Origin: Methylobacterium terrae
GTDB lineage: Bacteria > Pseudomonadota > Alphaproteobacteria > Rhizobiales > Beijerinckiaceae
Length of the DNA: 64,000 nucleotides
Assembly: GCF_003173755.1 (NCBI RefSeq)
Contig: NZ_CP029553.1
Location: 4,116,001-4,180,000, forward strand
Direction: 5' to 3'
Part shown: in pieces, positions 5,654 to 33,627 of the stretch
Layout of the letters: each line of letters begins with the position of its first letter
How positions within the stretch are numbered: the first letter of the stretch is position 1
Position numbers and translations under genes: made by a program
The notes under the pieces: model-generated
Database searches by the model: none
What the model was told of the DNA's origin: nothing
What the model saw: the letters and a program-made list of their open reading frames with translations, nothing else

Positions 5654-5730
5654 TGGCAGGAGTGGAGGGACTCGAACCCCCAACCCCCGGTTTTGGAGAC
5701 CGGTGCTCTGACCAGTTGAGCTACACTCCT
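5654..5730 (-). tRNA. trnW: tRNA-Trp (anticodon CCA)
   Basis: The minus strand folds into a standard cloverleaf. Acceptor arms AGGAGTG and CACTCCT (5724-5730 and 5658-5664) pair perfectly. The D-arm TAGCTCAACTGG, the anticodon loop CTCCAAA with anticodon CCA, and the T-loop GGTTCGAGTCC are present. The 3' CCA is encoded (5656-5654). It lies upstream of secE and may be cotranscribed with it, a common arrangement. Confidence 0.96.
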
Positions 5731-27084: not shown

Positions 27085-28302
27085 TCACGCTGCGAGGGAT
27101 TGGGGAGAGGGGCGACCGAACATCAGGTCGTCCCGGTCGTCGGAGGTGATCGGGTCGCCGGTGCGGATCAGGGACTTGCACCAGCCCTGCTCGGCGACGT
27201 CGCCGACGAAGACCGCGCCGATCAGGCGGTCGCCGTCGATCACGAGCTTGCGGTAGAGGCCGGCGGCCGGATCGCTCCAGGTCACGGCTTGCGCGCCCTC
27301 GGGCACGTCGACGGCCCCGGCGGAGAAGACCGGCAGGCCGGAGACCTTGAGGCTCGTCGCGAGCGAGGTGCCGGCGTAAGCGGCCTCGATCCCGCAGAGG
27401 TGGCGGGCCAGCACCTCGGCCTGCTCGTAGGCCGGTTCGACGAGGCCGTAGGTCTGGCCCCGGTGCTCGGCGCATTCGCCGAGCGCGTAGATCCCCGGCA
27501 CCGAGGTCGCCATCGCGTCGTCGACCCGGATGCCGCGGCCGACCGCGAGGCCGGCACTCGCCGCGAGCGCCGTCGAGGGGCGCACGCCGACCGACATCAC
27601 CACGAGGTCGGCCGGCAGCACCGTGCCGTCGGACAGGACCAGGCGTTCCACCTTGCCGTCGCCCTCGACCGCGGCGGTGTCGGCGTTCAGGATCACCCGC
27701 ACGCCGCGGGCCTCCATCGCCTCGCGCACGAGGCCGGCGGCGGCGTGGTCGAGCTGGCGCTCCATCAGCCGGTCCATGACGTGCAGGAGCGTGGTGTCGA
27801 CCCCGAGCCGGGCGAGGCCCACCGCCGCCTCGAGCCCGAGGAGGCCGCCGCCGATCACGATCGCCCGCGCGCCCGCCACCGCCGCCCGGCGGATCGCCGC
27901 GACGTCGGCGAGATCCCGGAAGGTGATGATCCCGGGCAGATCCATGCCGGGCTTCGGCAGCCGGATCGGCACCGAGCCGACCGCCAGCACCAGCTGGTCG
28001 TAAGGGAGCACCAGCCCCTCGCCGACCTGCACGACCCGCTCCGCGGTGTCGATGGCGGTGGCGGGCGCGCCGGTGACCAGCGTGATGCCGTGCCCGGCGT
28101 ACCAGTCGAGCCCGCGGAAGGTGCAGGCCGCCTCGTCGACCTCGCCGCCGAGCAGCGACGACAGCAGCACCCGGTTGTAGGCCGCCACCGGCTCGGCGCC
28201 GATGCAGGTGACGGCGTAGCGGCCGGGGGCGGCCTCGGTCAGCCGCTCCAGGAAGCGGAGCGAGGCCATGCCGTTGCCGATGACGACGAGGCGGTCCGTC
28301 AT
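27085..28302 (-). CDS. NirB-like NAD(P)/FAD oxidoreductase, stand-alone
   Basis: The 405-residue protein matches the FAD/NADH module found at the N-terminus of NirB-type nitrite reductases. FAD motifs are LVVIGNGMASLRFLERL and PGIYALGECAEHRGQTYGLV. The NADH motif is AIVIGGGLLGLEAAVGLARL. It lacks the siroheme reductase part, which is supplied by the separate nirA gene 11 bp downstream. It probably passes NADH electrons to nitrite or nitrate reductase. It starts 5 bp after the transporter ATPase gene. Confidence 0.88.
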   Translation of the reverse strand: MTDRLVVIGNGMASLRFLERLTEAAPGRYAVTCIGAEPVAAYNRVLLSSLLGGEVDEAACTFRGLDWYAGHGITLVTGAPATAIDTAERVVQVGEGLVLPYDQLVLAVGSVPIRLPKPGMDLPGIITFRDLADVAAIRRAAVAGARAIVIGGGLLGLEAAVGLARLGVDTTLLHVMDRLMERQLDHAAAGLVREAMEARGVRVILNADTAAVEGDGKVERLVLSDGTVLPADLVVMSVGVRPSTALAASAGLAVGRGIRVDDAMATSVPGIYALGECAEHRGQTYGLVEPAYEQAEVLARHLCGIEAAYAGTSLATSLKVSGLPVFSAGAVDVPEGAQAVTWSDPAAGLYRKLVIDGDRLIGAVFVGDVAEQGWCKSLIRTGDPITSDDRDDLMFGRPSPQSLAA

Positions 28303-28307
28303 GGGCG

Positions 28308-29102
28308 TCAGGCCGCGATCGCGGGTTTGGCGTGGCGGGCGTAGAGGAATTCCAGCACCTCGGCCCGGGCATGGGTGTAGGTCGGGTCCTCGACGAGCTC
28401 GAGGCGCTTGCGCGGCCGCTCGAGCGGCACCGTCAGCACCTCGCCGATCGTGGCCGAGGGCCCGTTCGTCATCATGACGATCCGGTCGGAGAGCAGCACC
28501 GCCTCGTCGACGTCGTGGGTGATCATGATGACGGTGTTCTTCAGCCGCAGGTGGATCTCCATCAGCTGGTCCTGCAGATGGGCGCGAGTCAGGGCGTCGA
28601 GGGCACCGAAGGGCTCGTCCATCAGCAGGACCTTCGGCTCCATGGCGAGCGCCCGGGCGATGCCGACGCGCTGCTTCATGCCGCCGGAGATCTCGTGCGG
28701 GCGCTTCTCGGCGGCGTGGGTCATGTTGACGAGCGCGAGGTTGTGCTCGATCCAGTCGCGCCGCTCCGCCCGGCTCTTCTTCGCCCTCAAGACCTTGTCG
28801 ACCGCGAGCGCCACGTTCTCGCGCACGGTGAGCCAGGGCAGGAGCGAATGGTTCTGGAACACCACCGCCCGCTCGGGGCCGGGGCTGTTCACCTCCTTGC
28901 CGTCGAGGAGGACGCCGCCGGTCGAGGCCTTGAGCAGGCCCGCCACGATATTGAGCACCGTCGACTTGCCGCAGCCGGAATGGCCGATCAGCGAGACGAA
29001 CTCGCCCTTGGCGATCTTCAGGTCGACGTCGCGCAAGACCTCCGTGGTGCGCCCGGCCCGCGTGAAGCTGATGCCGATCTGCTCGAGGCTGAGATGGGTC
29101 AT
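28308..29102 (-). CDS. nrtD: nitrate ABC transporter ATP-binding protein
   Basis: The 264-residue ATPase powers nitrate import. It has Walker A IGHSGCGKSTVLN, Q-loop FQNHSLLPWLTV, the signature EISGGMKQRVGIARALA, Walker B VLLMDEPFGALD and the switch TVIMITHDVDEA. It belongs to the NrtC/D-TauB-SsuB class, without the extra solute-binding domain of NrtC. ATG 29102 is used because MTHLSLEQIG starts the conserved region. The gene follows the permease by 11 bp. Confidence 0.92.
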   Translation of the reverse strand: MTHLSLEQIGISFTRAGRTTEVLRDVDLKIAKGEFVSLIGHSGCGKSTVLNIVAGLLKASTGGVLLDGKEVNSPGPERAVVFQNHSLLPWLTVRENVALAVDKVLRAKKSRAERRDWIEHNLALVNMTHAAEKRPHEISGGMKQRVGIARALAMEPKVLLMDEPFGALDALTRAHLQDQLMEIHLRLKNTVIMITHDVDEAVLLSDRIVMMTNGPSATIGEVLTVPLERPRKRLELVEDPTYTHARAEVLEFLYARHAKPAIAA

Positions 29103-29113
29103 GGGTGGCTCCC

Positions 29114-29974
29114 TCAGGCCGTGGCGGTGCCGCGGGTGACGAGGTGGCCGAGGCCGGCGACGAGGCGGTCGAGCACGAAGCCGATCACCCCGACATAGAC
29201 CAGGGCCACGATGATCTCGCTGATGTGCGAGGAGTTCCAGGCATCCCAGATGAAGAAGCCGATGCCGACGCCGCCGATCAGCATCTCGGCGGCCACGATG
29301 GCGAGCCAGGACAGGCCGACGCCGATGCGAAGTCCCGTGAAGATGTAGGGAGCGGCCGACGGCAGCATCACCTTGGCGAAGAACTCGAAGGCGTTGAGGC
29401 GTAAGACCGCCGCGACGTTGCGGTAATCCTGCGGGATGTTGCGGATGCCGACCGCGGTGTTGATGATGATCGGCCAGATCGAGGTGATGAAGATCACGAA
29501 GATCGCCGAGGGCTGGCCGTCCCGGAAGGCAGCGAGCGACAAGGGCAGCCAGGCGAGCGGCGGGATGGTCCGCAGCACCTGGAAGATCGGGTCGAGCCCG
29601 CGCATCGCCCATTCGGACTGGCCGACGAGGGTCCCGAGCATCACGCCGGCGATGACCGCCAGGGTGAAGCCCAAAGCCACGCGCTGGAGGCTGGCGGTGA
29701 TATGCCAGAACAGACCCTTGTCGGTGCCGCCGTTGTCGTAGAACGGGTGGGCGATGATCTCCCACGCCTCCGTGACCACGCGGGAGGGCGGCGGCAGGCC
29801 GGCGCCGGGGCGCCCGCAGAGCACTTCCCAGAGTAGCAGGAACACCGCCAGCACGACGAGCGGCGGCACGATCCGCAAGCCCAGTCCTTTCAGGGCGGCG
29901 CGGGTGACGAGGGGGCGGCGCGCGCCCTCCACCTTGGCGGCGCCGACGCGCCCGAGGCTTAGTCCGAGAGCCAT
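29114..29974 (-). CDS. nrtB: nitrate ABC transporter permease
   Basis: The 286-residue inner-membrane permease has about six helices, such as IVPPLVVLAVFLLLWEVL and LVYVGVIGFVLDRLVAGL. The BPD_transp motif region contains MLPSAAPYIFTGLRIGVGLS and WLAIVAAEMLIGG, which contacts the ATPase. The NrtB-like QVLRTIPPLAWLPLSLAAF is present. Start and stop are almost contiguous with nrtA, so they are translated from one message. Confidence 0.93.
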   Translation of the reverse strand: MALGLSLGRVGAAKVEGARRPLVTRAALKGLGLRIVPPLVVLAVFLLLWEVLCGRPGAGLPPPSRVVTEAWEIIAHPFYDNGGTDKGLFWHITASLQRVALGFTLAVIAGVMLGTLVGQSEWAMRGLDPIFQVLRTIPPLAWLPLSLAAFRDGQPSAIFVIFITSIWPIIINTAVGIRNIPQDYRNVAAVLRLNAFEFFAKVMLPSAAPYIFTGLRIGVGLSWLAIVAAEMLIGGVGIGFFIWDAWNSSHISEIIVALVYVGVIGFVLDRLVAGLGHLVTRGTATA

Positions 29975-29975
29975 C

Positions 29976-31262
29976 TCACGCCACCTTCTTGATGCCGAGG
30001 CTGCCGAGGTAGGCGGCGGGATCCGCCGGATCGAAGACCTTGCCGTCGAAGAAGGTCTCCTTGCCGCGGGAGGTCGAGGCCGGGGCCGTGACGCCCATGC
30101 CCTTCGCCACCTCGCGCCAGATGTCCTCGCGGTTGACCCGTCCGATGAGGGCCTTGGTGTCGGTCTGGGGGTCGAACTTGCCCCAGCGGATGTCCTCGGT
30201 GAGGAACCAGAGGTCGTGCGACTGGTACGGGTACGAGGCGTTGTCGGCCCAGTACTTCATGATGTGCGGGCTGTTTGCGACCTTGCGGCCGTCGCCGTAG
30301 TCGAACTCACCCTTCATCCGCTTGACGACGTCGCTCGCCGGGACGTTGATCCACTGGCGCTTGGCGACGATGCCGGCGAGCTCGTCGCGGTTCTCCGGCT
30401 TGTCGCACCAGGCTTGCGCCTCCATCACGGCGGCGAGCAGGGCCTTGGCGGCGTTCGGATACTTGTCGACCCAGGACGCGCGCATGCCGAGCGCCTTCTC
30501 GGGATGGTCCTTCCACAACTCGCCGGTGGTCAGCGCCGTGTAGCCGATCCCTTGCGTGATCAGCTGCTCGTTCCACGGCTCGCAGACGCAGAAGCAGTCC
30601 ATCGTGCCGACCTTCATGTTCGCCACCATCTGGGGCGGCGGCACGACGATGGTCTCGATGTCCTTGTCGGGGTCGATGCCGCCGGCGGCGAGCCAGTAGC
30701 GGATCCAGAGGTCGTGGGTGCCGCCCGGGAAGGTCATGGCGGCCTTCACCGACTTCCCCGACGCCTTCTTGCGCTCGAGCGCCGCCTTGAAGGGCTTGGC
30801 GTCGAGGGCGACCTTGTCGCCCATGTGCTCCTTGGCGACCGAGATGCACTGGCCGGCGAGATTGAGCCGGGCCAGGATGTACATCGGCACCGGCACGTTG
30901 TTCTGCGTCACCCGGCCGGCGCTGATGAGGTAGGGCATCGGGGTCAGGATGTGGGCCCCGTCGATGCCGTTGCCCTCGGAGCCGAGCACCAGGTTGTCGC
31001 GGGTGGTGCCCCAGGAGGCCTGCTTCAGGACCTCGACGTCGGGCATGCCGTGCTTCGCGAAGATGCCCTTCTCCTTGGCGACGAAGAGGGGGGCGGCGTC
31101 GGTGAGCGCGATGAAGCCGAGCTTGGCGCCCTTCACCTCCGGTCCGGTCCCTTGCGCAAAGGCGCCGCCGGGCAGGGCCGCACGGGCGGCCGCCGCCAGC
31201 GACAGGGCGCCAGCCGCCCCCTTGAGGATGCCGCGACGCGTGGTGTGCTCAACGCTGCTCAT
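29976..31262 (-). CDS. nrtA: nitrate ABC transporter substrate-binding protein, Tat exported
   Basis: NrtA captures nitrate in the periplasm. The 428-residue product starts MSSVEHTTRRGILKGAAGA, a twin-arginine signal. Mature-part motifs are LGFIALTDAAPLFVAKEKG, ILTPMPYLISAG and YSHD-type SYPYQSHDLWFLTEDIRWGK, typical of NrtA/CmpA. The start at 31262 is chosen over an ATG 11 codons upstream, which would lengthen the n-region. It is the first gene of the operon behind a sigma-54 promoter and a structured leader. Confidence 0.94.
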   Translation of the reverse strand: MSSVEHTTRRGILKGAAGALSLAAAARAALPGGAFAQGTGPEVKGAKLGFIALTDAAPLFVAKEKGIFAKHGMPDVEVLKQASWGTTRDNLVLGSEGNGIDGAHILTPMPYLISAGRVTQNNVPVPMYILARLNLAGQCISVAKEHMGDKVALDAKPFKAALERKKASGKSVKAAMTFPGGTHDLWIRYWLAAGGIDPDKDIETIVVPPPQMVANMKVGTMDCFCVCEPWNEQLITQGIGYTALTTGELWKDHPEKALGMRASWVDKYPNAAKALLAAVMEAQAWCDKPENRDELAGIVAKRQWINVPASDVVKRMKGEFDYGDGRKVANSPHIMKYWADNASYPYQSHDLWFLTEDIRWGKFDPQTDTKALIGRVNREDIWREVAKGMGVTAPASTSRGKETFFDGKVFDPADPAAYLGSLGIKKVA

Positions 31263-31320
31263 CGATGACTCGCCCTCAAAGCCTCGCGCCGCCATGGCGC
31301 CTGATCCGATGCCGAACGCG

Positions 31321-31393
31321 AAAAGCCGCCGCCCAAGGTCTTCCGCCGGCCGCGCTGAAGCGGGCCCACAGGGGATCTCGGGTCAGCGGCTCT
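31321..31393 (-). terminator. candidate leader terminator, alternative to the second ANTAR hairpin
   Basis: In the minus-strand RNA AGAGCCGC (31393-31386), which is the loop and 3' arm of hairpin P2, can pair with GCGGCTTT (31329-31322), followed by a short T-run ending at 31321. Formation of P2 would therefore block this structure. The T-run is only four bases and the loop is long, so the assignment is tentative. Confidence 0.42.
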
Positions 31394-31426
31394 GCTGACG
31401 GTCAGTGCCCGTCGACGCTGACGGGC
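31382..31426 (-). promoter_or_regulatory. two-hairpin ANTAR-binding RNA motif in the nrtA leader
   Basis: On the minus strand P1 is GCCCGTC-AGCGTC-GACGGGC (31426-31407) and P2 is GTCAGC-AGAGCC-GCTGAC (31399-31382), joined by 7 nt. Both stems are perfect and both have six-base loops with A at position 1 and G at position 4, the published hallmark of ANTAR protein targets. The matching regulator NasT is encoded 1.6 kb upstream. Binding would promote antitermination of the nitrate operon. Confidence 0.85.
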
Positions 31427-31437
31427 CTGAAGGGAAG

Positions 31438-31453
31438 AGCAGGTTTCGTGCCA
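31438..31453 (-). promoter_or_regulatory. sigma-54 promoter of the nitrate operon
   Basis: On the minus strand TGGCACGAAACCTGCT matches TGGCACGN4TTGCT except for one base, with GG and GC spaced by 10. Transcription would start near 31427, one base ahead of hairpin P1. Possible NtrC half-sites GCACCA and GGTGC lie 70-100 bp upstream, but not in the canonical spacing. Confidence 0.75.
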
Positions 31454-31990: not shown

Positions 31991-32986
31991 TTACGCCGCC
32001 GCCAGCAGGTCCGGCCGATACAGTCCATTCGCGTCGGCGAACACCGTCTCGACCTGCCCCGCCGCCGCCATCTCCTCGACCATCCAACCGAGGGCGTCCG
32101 GGTCGGGGGTGAGTTCGGGCTCGCCGAGGACGAGGTAATCCGCGGCCTCGATCACCTCCCCGCCCGGCGCGAGCCGCAACGTCCCCGAGAGCCCCCGCAG
32201 GACCAACGCCGGATCGAGGCCGAGATGGCGCGGGCTGGCGAGCAGGGCGGCCAGCGCCTCGCGATTATCCGGCTCCCCGCACCAGCGAGCACTCCGCTTC
32301 AGGGCGCGCAGGAGCGGCGCCGCGCGGTCCTCCATCTCGGCGGGCAGCGCCAGCACCTTCTCCGGGCAGCCCGGCGCGATCGCGGCACCGAGGGCGGCGA
32401 TGCGGCCGACGCCTGCCTCGACCGCGACGCTGCTCCAGGGCGCGCCGACGCAGAACCCGTCGATCCGGCCGCTCTCCAGGGCCGCGACGGTGGCGGGCGG
32501 CGGCACCACCACGAGGCGGACCGACGCGAGCGAGCTGCCGCCGAGCGCCAGCAGGCGCCGCCATTGGTAGGTGTGGGAGGAATAGGGGTGGACGGTGGCG
32601 AGCGTCAGCGGTCGCCCCTCCCCGGCGCGGGCCTCGGCGACGCGGGCGAGCGCGCGGGCGACGTCGGACAAGGCGTCGGATGCGGCATCGAGTGCCTGCC
32701 AGAGCGGCAGCGACAGGGTCACGGCGTTGCCGTTGCGCGCGAGCGCCGCCGGGGCGATCAGGCGCGCCTGAGGTCCGCTGAGGCCCAGGTGACAGGCCAG
32801 CGCCAGCGGCGCCAGCATGTGGGCGCCGTCGAGGACACCGAGCGCGAGGCGGTCGCGCAGGGTCGCCCAGGAGGGCTCGGGCACCAGGTCGACCTCGAGC
32901 CCTTCCCCCGCCGTGAAGCCGCGCTCGACCGCGGCGATCAGCACCGCGGCGTCGGTGAGCGGGACGTAGCCGAGCTGGAGCCTCAT
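31991..32986 (-). CDS. nasS: NasS-like nitrate sensor (cytoplasmic NrtA homolog)
   Basis: The 331-residue protein resembles NrtA/CmpA (LQLGYVPLTDAAVLIAAVER, HPYSSHTYQWRRLL, GRIDGFCVGAPWSSVAVEAG) but has no signal peptide, so it stays in the cytoplasm. NasS holds NasT inactive without nitrate or nitrite and releases it when they bind. It overlaps nasT by 4 bp (ATGA), here with nasT first. The predicted role is sensing for the nitrate operon. Confidence 0.85.
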   Translation of the reverse strand: MRLQLGYVPLTDAAVLIAAVERGFTAGEGLEVDLVPEPSWATLRDRLALGVLDGAHMLAPLALACHLGLSGPQARLIAPAALARNGNAVTLSLPLWQALDAASDALSDVARALARVAEARAGEGRPLTLATVHPYSSHTYQWRRLLALGGSSLASVRLVVVPPPATVAALESGRIDGFCVGAPWSSVAVEAGVGRIAALGAAIAPGCPEKVLALPAEMEDRAAPLLRALKRSARWCGEPDNREALAALLASPRHLGLDPALVLRGLSGTLRLAPGGEVIEAADYLVLGEPELTPDPDALGWMVEEMAAAGQVETVFADANGLYRPDLLAAA

Positions 32987-33627
32987 CCGAGCAGGTCCGC
33001 GGCGGTGACGATGGCGCGGGCGATGTCGACGATCTTGCGCTTCTCGTTCATCGCCTTGCGCCGGAGCTGCTTGTAGGCCTCGTCCTCGGTCAGCCCCTTG
33101 GCGCTCATCAGGATACCCTTGGCGCGCTCGATCAGCTTGCGGTCGGCGAGCTCGCTCTTCGCCTCGGTGAGCTCGCGCTGCAGCCGCGCGAAGGCGTTGA
33201 AGCGCAGGATCGCGATCTCGATGATCGGCTTGATCCGCTCGGCGCGAAGCCCATCGACGATGTAGGCCGAGATGCCGGCATCGACGGCGGCCTGCATCAT
33301 CGGCGCGTCGGAGCGGTCGACGAACATCGCCACCGGCCGCTCGACCAGGCGCGAGACCCCGAACATCTGCTCCAGGAGGTCGCGGCTCGGGCTCTCGAGG
33401 TGGATCACCACCACGTCGGGCGACAGGGCGGAGAGACGGTCGAGGAGGTCGGCGGTGTCGGGGATCACCACCACCCGGGCGCCCTCGACGGCGCGCAGGC
33501 CCTCTTCCAGGATCGCGGCCCGGGCACGGCTCGGATCGACGACGGCGATGGTGAGGCTCTCGCCCGGGGACGGGGCGGGAGTCACCGGGGCGGGAGAGGC
33601 CGGGGGGGGCGCTGCGCGGTCGGGCAT
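32983..33627 (-). CDS. nasT: NasT-like ANTAR-domain antiterminator
   Basis: The 214-residue protein has a receiver-like domain (about 25-140) and a C-terminal ANTAR domain (about 150-205) with DRKLIERAKGILMSAKGL and EDEAYKQLRRKAM. In the receiver the usual phospho-Asp position appears as VVVIHLESPSRD, with His instead of Asp. Control by NasS binding rather than phosphorylation therefore fits. The RNA target is seen in the nrtA leader. Confidence 0.88.
   Translation of the reverse strand: MPDRAAPPPASPAPVTPAPSPGESLTIAVVDPSRARAAILEEGLRAVEGARVVVIPDTADLLDRLSALSPDVVVIHLESPSRDLLEQMFGVSRLVERPVAMFVDRSDAPMMQAAVDAGISAYIVDGLRAERIKPIIEIAILRFNAFARLQRELTEAKSELADRKLIERAKGILMSAKGLTEDEAYKQLRRKAMNEKRKIVDIARAIVTAADLLG

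Follow-up and report, generated by a model that had tools for sequence, protein, structure and literature searches.

The nrtABC genes on the minus strand of the window, which is the whole 64,000-nucleotide stretch of DNA analyzed here (G000:C1:4116001-4180000, within a 6.16-Mb single-contig genome), are in all probability preceded by a two-input switch, in which nitrogen limitation would start transcription and NasT freed by nitrate would hold two hairpins of the leader RNA (P1 and P2) and prevent termination. This leader is real and well conserved, and very likely functional; its parts, their conservation and the mutual exclusion of two of its structures are results of computation. The observation that led to the analysis, a sigma-54 promoter placed directly before a two-hairpin ANTAR target, is confirmed.

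The genes of the locus run on the minus strand in the order nasT, nasS, a gap of 0.7 kb, nrtA, nrtB, nrtC and a NirB-like reductase, and the nearest named relatives as judged by NasT belong to Methylobacterium. The nrtA-like gene for the binding protein of a nitrate ABC transporter (29976..31262, Pfam NMT1_2) has its start read as the ATG at 31262, after GAGGGCGAG, with an in-frame ATG also present at 31295. It is followed by the permease gene nrtB (29114..29974; NCBIfam TIGR01183, 324 bits, cut-off 209), an nrtC/D ATPase with a putative start codon (28308..29117; NCBIfam TIGR01184, 369 bits, cut-off 292) and a NirB-like FAD/NAD reductase (27085..28302), the latter matching the NirB model over its N-terminal half and scoring below the cut-off (TIGR02374, 397 bits against 578). 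Upstream lie a nasS-like nitrate sensor, also with a putative start codon (31991..32989; NMT1_2, 199 bits, cut-off 24.7), and nasT (32983..33627), which has an ANTAR domain (71.3 bits, cut-off 27.3) and a weak receiver domain. The original prediction described nasT as just upstream of the leader; it does precede the leader, by approximately 1.5 kb, but nasS lies between them. An ANTAR response regulator beside an NrtA-like sensor is the arrangement by which a NasS-NasT system is recognized, and a search of the genome gave no ANTAR protein besides NasT. The genome also has one match to the RpoN DNA-binding domain and one NtrC above the curated cut-off. The receiver domain of NasT (within 32983-33627, minus strand) falls below the Pfam cut-off and has IHLESP in place of the consensus IDLENP of the family, features that would be fitting for control by NasS rather than by phosphorylation. 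When the window was searched with Rfam at the gathering thresholds the leader gave no match; a tRNA gene at 5657-5730 (minus strand) was the sole match of the window.

The consensus of sigma-54 promoters is TGGCACG-N4-TTGC-W. The sigma-54-type promoter of the leader, TGGCACGAAACCTGCT (31438..31453, minus strand), has the GG-N10-GC core and agrees with this consensus at 11 of 12 scored positions. Transcription is predicted to start at 31427, which is 12 nt beyond the C of the -12 GC (31439) with an uncertainty of about 3 nt, and is 165 nt from the nrtA ATG at 31262; as had been proposed, P1 begins one base later, at 31426. The letters of the promoter alone are weak evidence, since two sites scoring at least 11 are seen in the window where 0.43 are expected, and exact matches to TGGCACGNNNNYTGCW number four in the genome against 16 for a reversed control pattern. 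It is position and conservation, and not the letters, that carry the promoter call: GG-N10-GC stands at the same place in all 34 loci of the genus that have this nrtA. No NtrC box was found at the window promoter with two patterns, one of which occurs in six of the 34 genus loci (2.0 in shuffles) and the other in none.

The two hairpins were correctly given in letters and coordinates by the original prediction. P1 (31407..31426, minus strand; GCCCGTC-AGCGTC-GACGGGC) has 7 bp and is also the 5′-terminal stem-loop of the predicted transcript, while P2 (31382..31399, minus strand; GTCAGC-AGAGCC-GCTGAC) has 6 bp and is, from its sequence and alignment, the putative antiterminator. Both hexaloops have A at position 1 and G at position 4 (A1/G4), and the linker of 7 nt (31406-31400) is inside the range of 5-12 nt given for the ANTAR targets of the eut genes (PMC3369931). 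On both strands of the window this is the sole pair of A1/G4 hexaloop hairpins with stems of at least 6 Watson-Crick bp. What the earlier two-hairpin picture omitted is the main working part of the leader, an intrinsic terminator that overlaps P2. In the minimum-energy fold its stem occupies 31393-31322 (minus strand), followed by UUUU at 31324-31321, and its 5′ arm starts exactly where the P2 loop starts and includes five of the six bases of the P2 3′ arm. As the loop and 3′ arm of P2 are thereby taken up, P2 and the terminator are mutually exclusive, and the leader would therefore be a switch. The fold of 31427-31320 has a minimum energy of -65.6 kcal/mol (z -4.9, with none of 200 shuffles as low), and in it P1 is kept and P2 is replaced by the terminator; forcing P2 gives -55.8 kcal/mol, a computed cost of about 10 kcal/mol. 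Dual hairpins, A1/G4 loops and a P2 that overlaps the terminator match ANTAR antitermination as described for other systems (PMC3369931, PMC3369936).

The genus search covered 47 genomes including the window's own, and 34 of these have this nrtA (82-100% identity). Promoter, P1 and P2 were found in 34/34, with 32 of the leaders located by a script that required A1/G4 and two (L033, L034) placed by eye, so that the invariance of A1 and G4 in both loops of the alignment was in 32 cases imposed by the script. With NasT, the sole ANTAR match of the genome, encoded 1.5 kb upstream, and with RpoN and NtrC present, this supports the proposal that a sigma-54 promoter feeds an ANTAR/NasT target. From the C of the GC to A1 of the P1 loop there are 20 nt in 24 loci, 24 nt in six, and 19, 21, 22 and 23 nt in one each. 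In 32/34 minimum-energy folds at least four of the six bases of the P2 3′ arm are paired into downstream structure, and P1 is broken in three (L009, L029, L032). A TTTT run is present in 25/34 leaders, that of the window among them; in 21 of the 25 its end lies 105-110 nt beyond the predicted start, the other four ending at 76, 100, 114 and 125 nt. In nine leaders (L008, L009, L010, L015, L017, L020, L029, L032, L037) a stretch of about 130 nt from the P2 loop has no TTTT, and a different stop signal, or control at translation, may operate there. The stem covariation that had been named as a check is modest inside the genus and weak by shuffle test: double changes occur in 3 of 12 pairs, a level reached in 144 of 500 shuffles, while registers slid by -3 to +2 give no such pair and +3 gives one.

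Outside the 34, two named Methylobacterium records with no such nrtA in the stretch examined (L176:10230-10310 and L177:10239-10320) have a NasT-linked promoter and P1 at the usual 20 nt, and their P2 loop is GAGGCC, with G1 and not A1. Among nrtA loci of other families, L035 has by eye the promoter and first hairpin with no clear P2, and L036 has GA for GC; in the eight loci with distant NrtA copies (L038-L045, 34-39% identity) the motif was not found. The nrtA match at G019:C1:4049706-4050994 (overlapping L037) comes in two overlapping pieces, and this gene may for that reason be frameshifted. An RNA model trained on the genus scores the leader at 66.5 bits in its own genome and the next match at 24.3 bits, the window being part of the training set, and has matches in only 27 of 387 genomes of the class, mostly weak.

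From these parts we infer the start site, the role of NtrC, the binding of NasT and the role of the 5′ position, and the order of events would be as follows. Under nitrogen limitation sigma-54 RNA polymerase, probably activated by NtrC, would start at about 31427, and the nascent RNA would open with P1. If nitrate is absent, NasS would hold NasT, the terminator would absorb P2 and transcription would stop about 107 nt from the start. Nitrate or nitrite would free NasT, whose two ANTAR domains would hold the loops of P1 and P2; P2 would then stay formed, the terminator would lose its 5′ arm and the polymerase would read into nrtA. Because P1 is the 5′-terminal stem-loop it would be complete on leaving the polymerase, and early loading of NasT would thus be favoured. 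P1 at this place may also protect the 5′ end of the RNA from decay.

A second NasT target is predicted in the same genome. Exact matches to the sigma-54 consensus stand at four places, that of the window and three others, two of which precede what we take by resemblance to be a glutamine-synthetase-like frame and a narK-like MFS gene, while the fourth lies 488 nt upstream of the nearest long frame. The narK-like leader and gene (L258 / L381; G000:C1:1730249-1731683, minus strand) have a sigma-54 site followed by a plain 5′ hairpin, P1 (loop AAAGAC) and P2 (loop AGGGAT), and the product of the gene, which occupies G000:C1:1730249-1731502, is MFS_1 by Pfam. Among genomes with the narK-like gene, the sigma-54 site and P1 at 37-42 nt are found in 26/27, and the 5′ hairpin is present in 24 of the 26 leaders compared with 1-8 of 26 in five control windows. 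A P2 with canonical loop at 59 nt occurs in 4/26, namely the window's genome and three near kin, which weakens the claim; of the rest, two have a hairpin at 85 nt and 20 have none. At the place of P2 seven other narK-like leaders have GGAC-GGTGTGA-GTCC (five) or GGAC-GGCGCGT-GTCC (two). For Bradyrhizobium, action of NasT on the nosR leader has been reported, and narK expression is reported to need NasT in one study (PMC4724949) and to rise without NasT under denitrifying conditions in another report (PMC6759348).

As the genus RNA model gave mostly weak hits, the wider survey was done by running a promoter-plus-hairpin script on the neighbourhoods of NasT. NasT was found in 64 of 387 genomes of the class, and the NasT alignment was matched in 154 of 397 genomes of the phylum, the match being limited in some of them to the ANTAR domain of a longer, NasR-like frame. 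The 201 loci surveyed comprise 60 of 66 class places, 60 phylum places chosen for family spread (eight of them NasR-like), 80 named records and the window locus (L002). A locus was included if it had a sigma-54 site scoring at least 10 followed by an ANTAR pair, by which rule 95 qualified and 106 were left out. Removal of 15 near-duplicates (first 60 nt at least 75% identical), the sole correction for relatedness, left 80 non-redundant leaders, three of them from the window's genus. In an earlier scan with different rules, promoter and pair within 90 nt were found in 13 of 60 class loci and in none of 300 shuffled loci. At least two ANTAR hairpins follow a site in 42 of the 80 named records; the targets of the remaining 38, which include all 10 Bradyrhizobium records, may lie elsewhere. 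When hairpins of the NasT loci were scored by distance after sigma-54 sites and A1/G4 was not required, A1 and G4 were both present in 60/82 at 15-35 nt, 76/120 at 36-90 nt and 16/111 at 91-230 nt, compared with 268/2911 along one strand of 120 whole loci. This unbiased loop test is better evidence than the genus alignment, in which the script required A1/G4 in 32/34.

The ANTAR pair begins at most 35 nt from the promoter in 39 of the 80 non-redundant leaders. For the first A1/G4 hairpin the distance is 17-26 nt in 39 leaders, 27-35 nt in eight and greater in 33. The 41 leaders with a late pair, which were not selected for 5′ structure, have more structure in their first 26 nt than shuffles (mean z -1.27, 59% below -1), compared with 12-34% below -1 in control segments placed clear of the 5′ end and of P1. 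A further 37 sigma-54-like sites of these loci have a mean z of -0.46 (Mann-Whitney p 0.001 against the late-pair group). Five sigma-54-type promoters of PII genes also show 5′ structure (mean z approximately -2.1; 25 of 30 PII loci have no site), so specificity for NasT is not established. In three of the PII loci (L342, L344, L350) transcripts from such promoters would open with a strong stem-loop. The possibility that a 5′ hairpin belongs to all sigma-54 transcripts was not clearly shown by 30 exact-consensus sites in class genomes, many of which lie within long open frames; six such sites judged intergenic and having no ANTAR pair had a mean z of 0.30 (1/6 below -1), and a hand count of exact-consensus sites that lack a pair gave 8/29 below -1.

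At least three ANTAR hairpins by 110 nt were counted in 16/80 leaders, some counts including overlapping alternatives (L172, L175, L283). Since 4.8% of shuffled leaders carry at least one ANTAR hairpin, chance alone would be expected to add one to about four of the 80. Leaders from NasT regions with three or more hairpins are L120, L122, L126, L132, L134, L152, L157, L161-L163, L168, L283 and L294, examples being loops at 22, 56 and 79 nt in one case and pairs at 19/46 and at 140/158 nt in another. In the open-licence literature consulted, no description of a 5′-terminal stem-loop, or of ANTAR hairpins beyond two, was found for leaders of this type, which is a weak sign that these features are new.

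Several other readings of the leader were weighed. That the hairpins arise by chance is exceedingly improbable: GC-rich DNA does fold readily, and six single A1/G4 hairpins per 64 kb against about 5.5 expected is what chance would give, but no dual pair appeared in 40 Markov-1 sequences of window length, and conservation in 34/34 loci contradicts chance. The likeliest of the rival readings, although we consider it possible rather than probable, is that the 5′-terminal stem-loop is primarily a protector of the mRNA end against 5′-pyrophosphate removal and 5′-end-dependent decay, that P1 has taken over this place, and that control by NasT needs only the spacing of P1 and P2. The structure of the 41 late-pair leaders and the plain 5′ hairpin of the narK-like leaders speak for it, as does the requirement of Bacillus RppH for at least two unpaired 5′ bases, as reported in PMC3997798. 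The five PII-gene promoters are structured as well, which makes the feature not specific to NasT, and a first paired base within +5 fails to separate leaders from controls (35/41 and 28/39 leaders, 26/37 controls).

Once terminated, the leader, about 107 nt long and bounded by hairpins, might itself be a stable small RNA that titrates NasT. EutV is known to be sequestered by ANTAR-binding small RNAs, and the computed fold keeps P1 intact together with the terminator. However, P2 is buried in this terminated form, and NasR is reported to bind a single hairpin about tenfold more weakly than the pair (approximately 12 against 1 micromolar; PMC7496416), so this use of the leader is unlikely. More improbable still is translational or Rho control in place of an intrinsic terminator. 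The nine genus leaders that lack TTTT and the frequent action of actinobacterial ANTAR RNAs on translation (reported in PMC8164766) would agree with it, but TTTT in 25/34 leaders, at 105-110 nt in 21 of them, argues for the intrinsic terminator. Antitermination by NasT is the preferred reading. As to the 5′ end, the evidence leaves finely balanced the proposal that selection maintains a 5′-terminal stem-loop as a general element of the sigma-54-driven leaders of NasT (and NasR-like) systems in Pseudomonadota, either as the first ANTAR hairpin (nrtA) or as a separate plain hairpin before P1 (narK-like), that this stem-loop times the loading of NasT or protects the leader, and that a minority of leaders have at least three ANTAR hairpins and not the textbook two.

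The meeting of sigma-54 with NasT control, which the original prediction offered as news, is supported by the comparison; it is not itself new, since sigma-54/NtrC control and NasT antitermination on one leader are described for nalA of Pseudomonas (PMC12830290, citing Romeo 2012). According to the same source the leader of the nalA / nirBD system resembles that of the window in being a sigma-54/NtrC-driven RNA with a terminator and NasT antitermination; it differs in belonging to another operon and to another bacterial class. Like the window leader, nasF of Klebsiella oxytoca is reported to have a P1-P2 hexaloop pair with A1/G4, a P2 that overlaps the terminator and nitrate-driven antitermination (PMC3369936, PMC7496416), but its regulator is the one-component NasR instead of NasS-NasT. 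Paracoccus denitrificans nasA shares the order nasT, nasS, leader, structural genes; NasT binds the nasA leader RNA (PMC3795266), in which hairpin HI is required (PMC5424462), whereas the authors of these reports had identified no NtrC site at the leader (PMC3795266, PMC5424462). NasT antitermination is also reported for nasAB of Azotobacter vinelandii in PMC12316311, a paper that further predicts sigma-54 promoters for genes of nitrate transport and for nasT in Pseudomonadota. The eut genes of Enterococcus with EutV share the general ANTAR two-hairpin model (PMC3369931), but respond to another signal through a phosphorylated regulator. The less familiar part of the window leader is its geometry, in that it opens with a stem-loop.

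The leader provides a compact and testable Methylobacterium-like example of how initiation may be set by nitrogen status, and elongation by nitrate, within one short RNA, and it predicts a second NasT target, the narK-like gene, in the same genome. The presence of a stem-loop at the first bases of many such leaders also raises the question of why a switch, or a plain hairpin, should stand at the very 5′ end.
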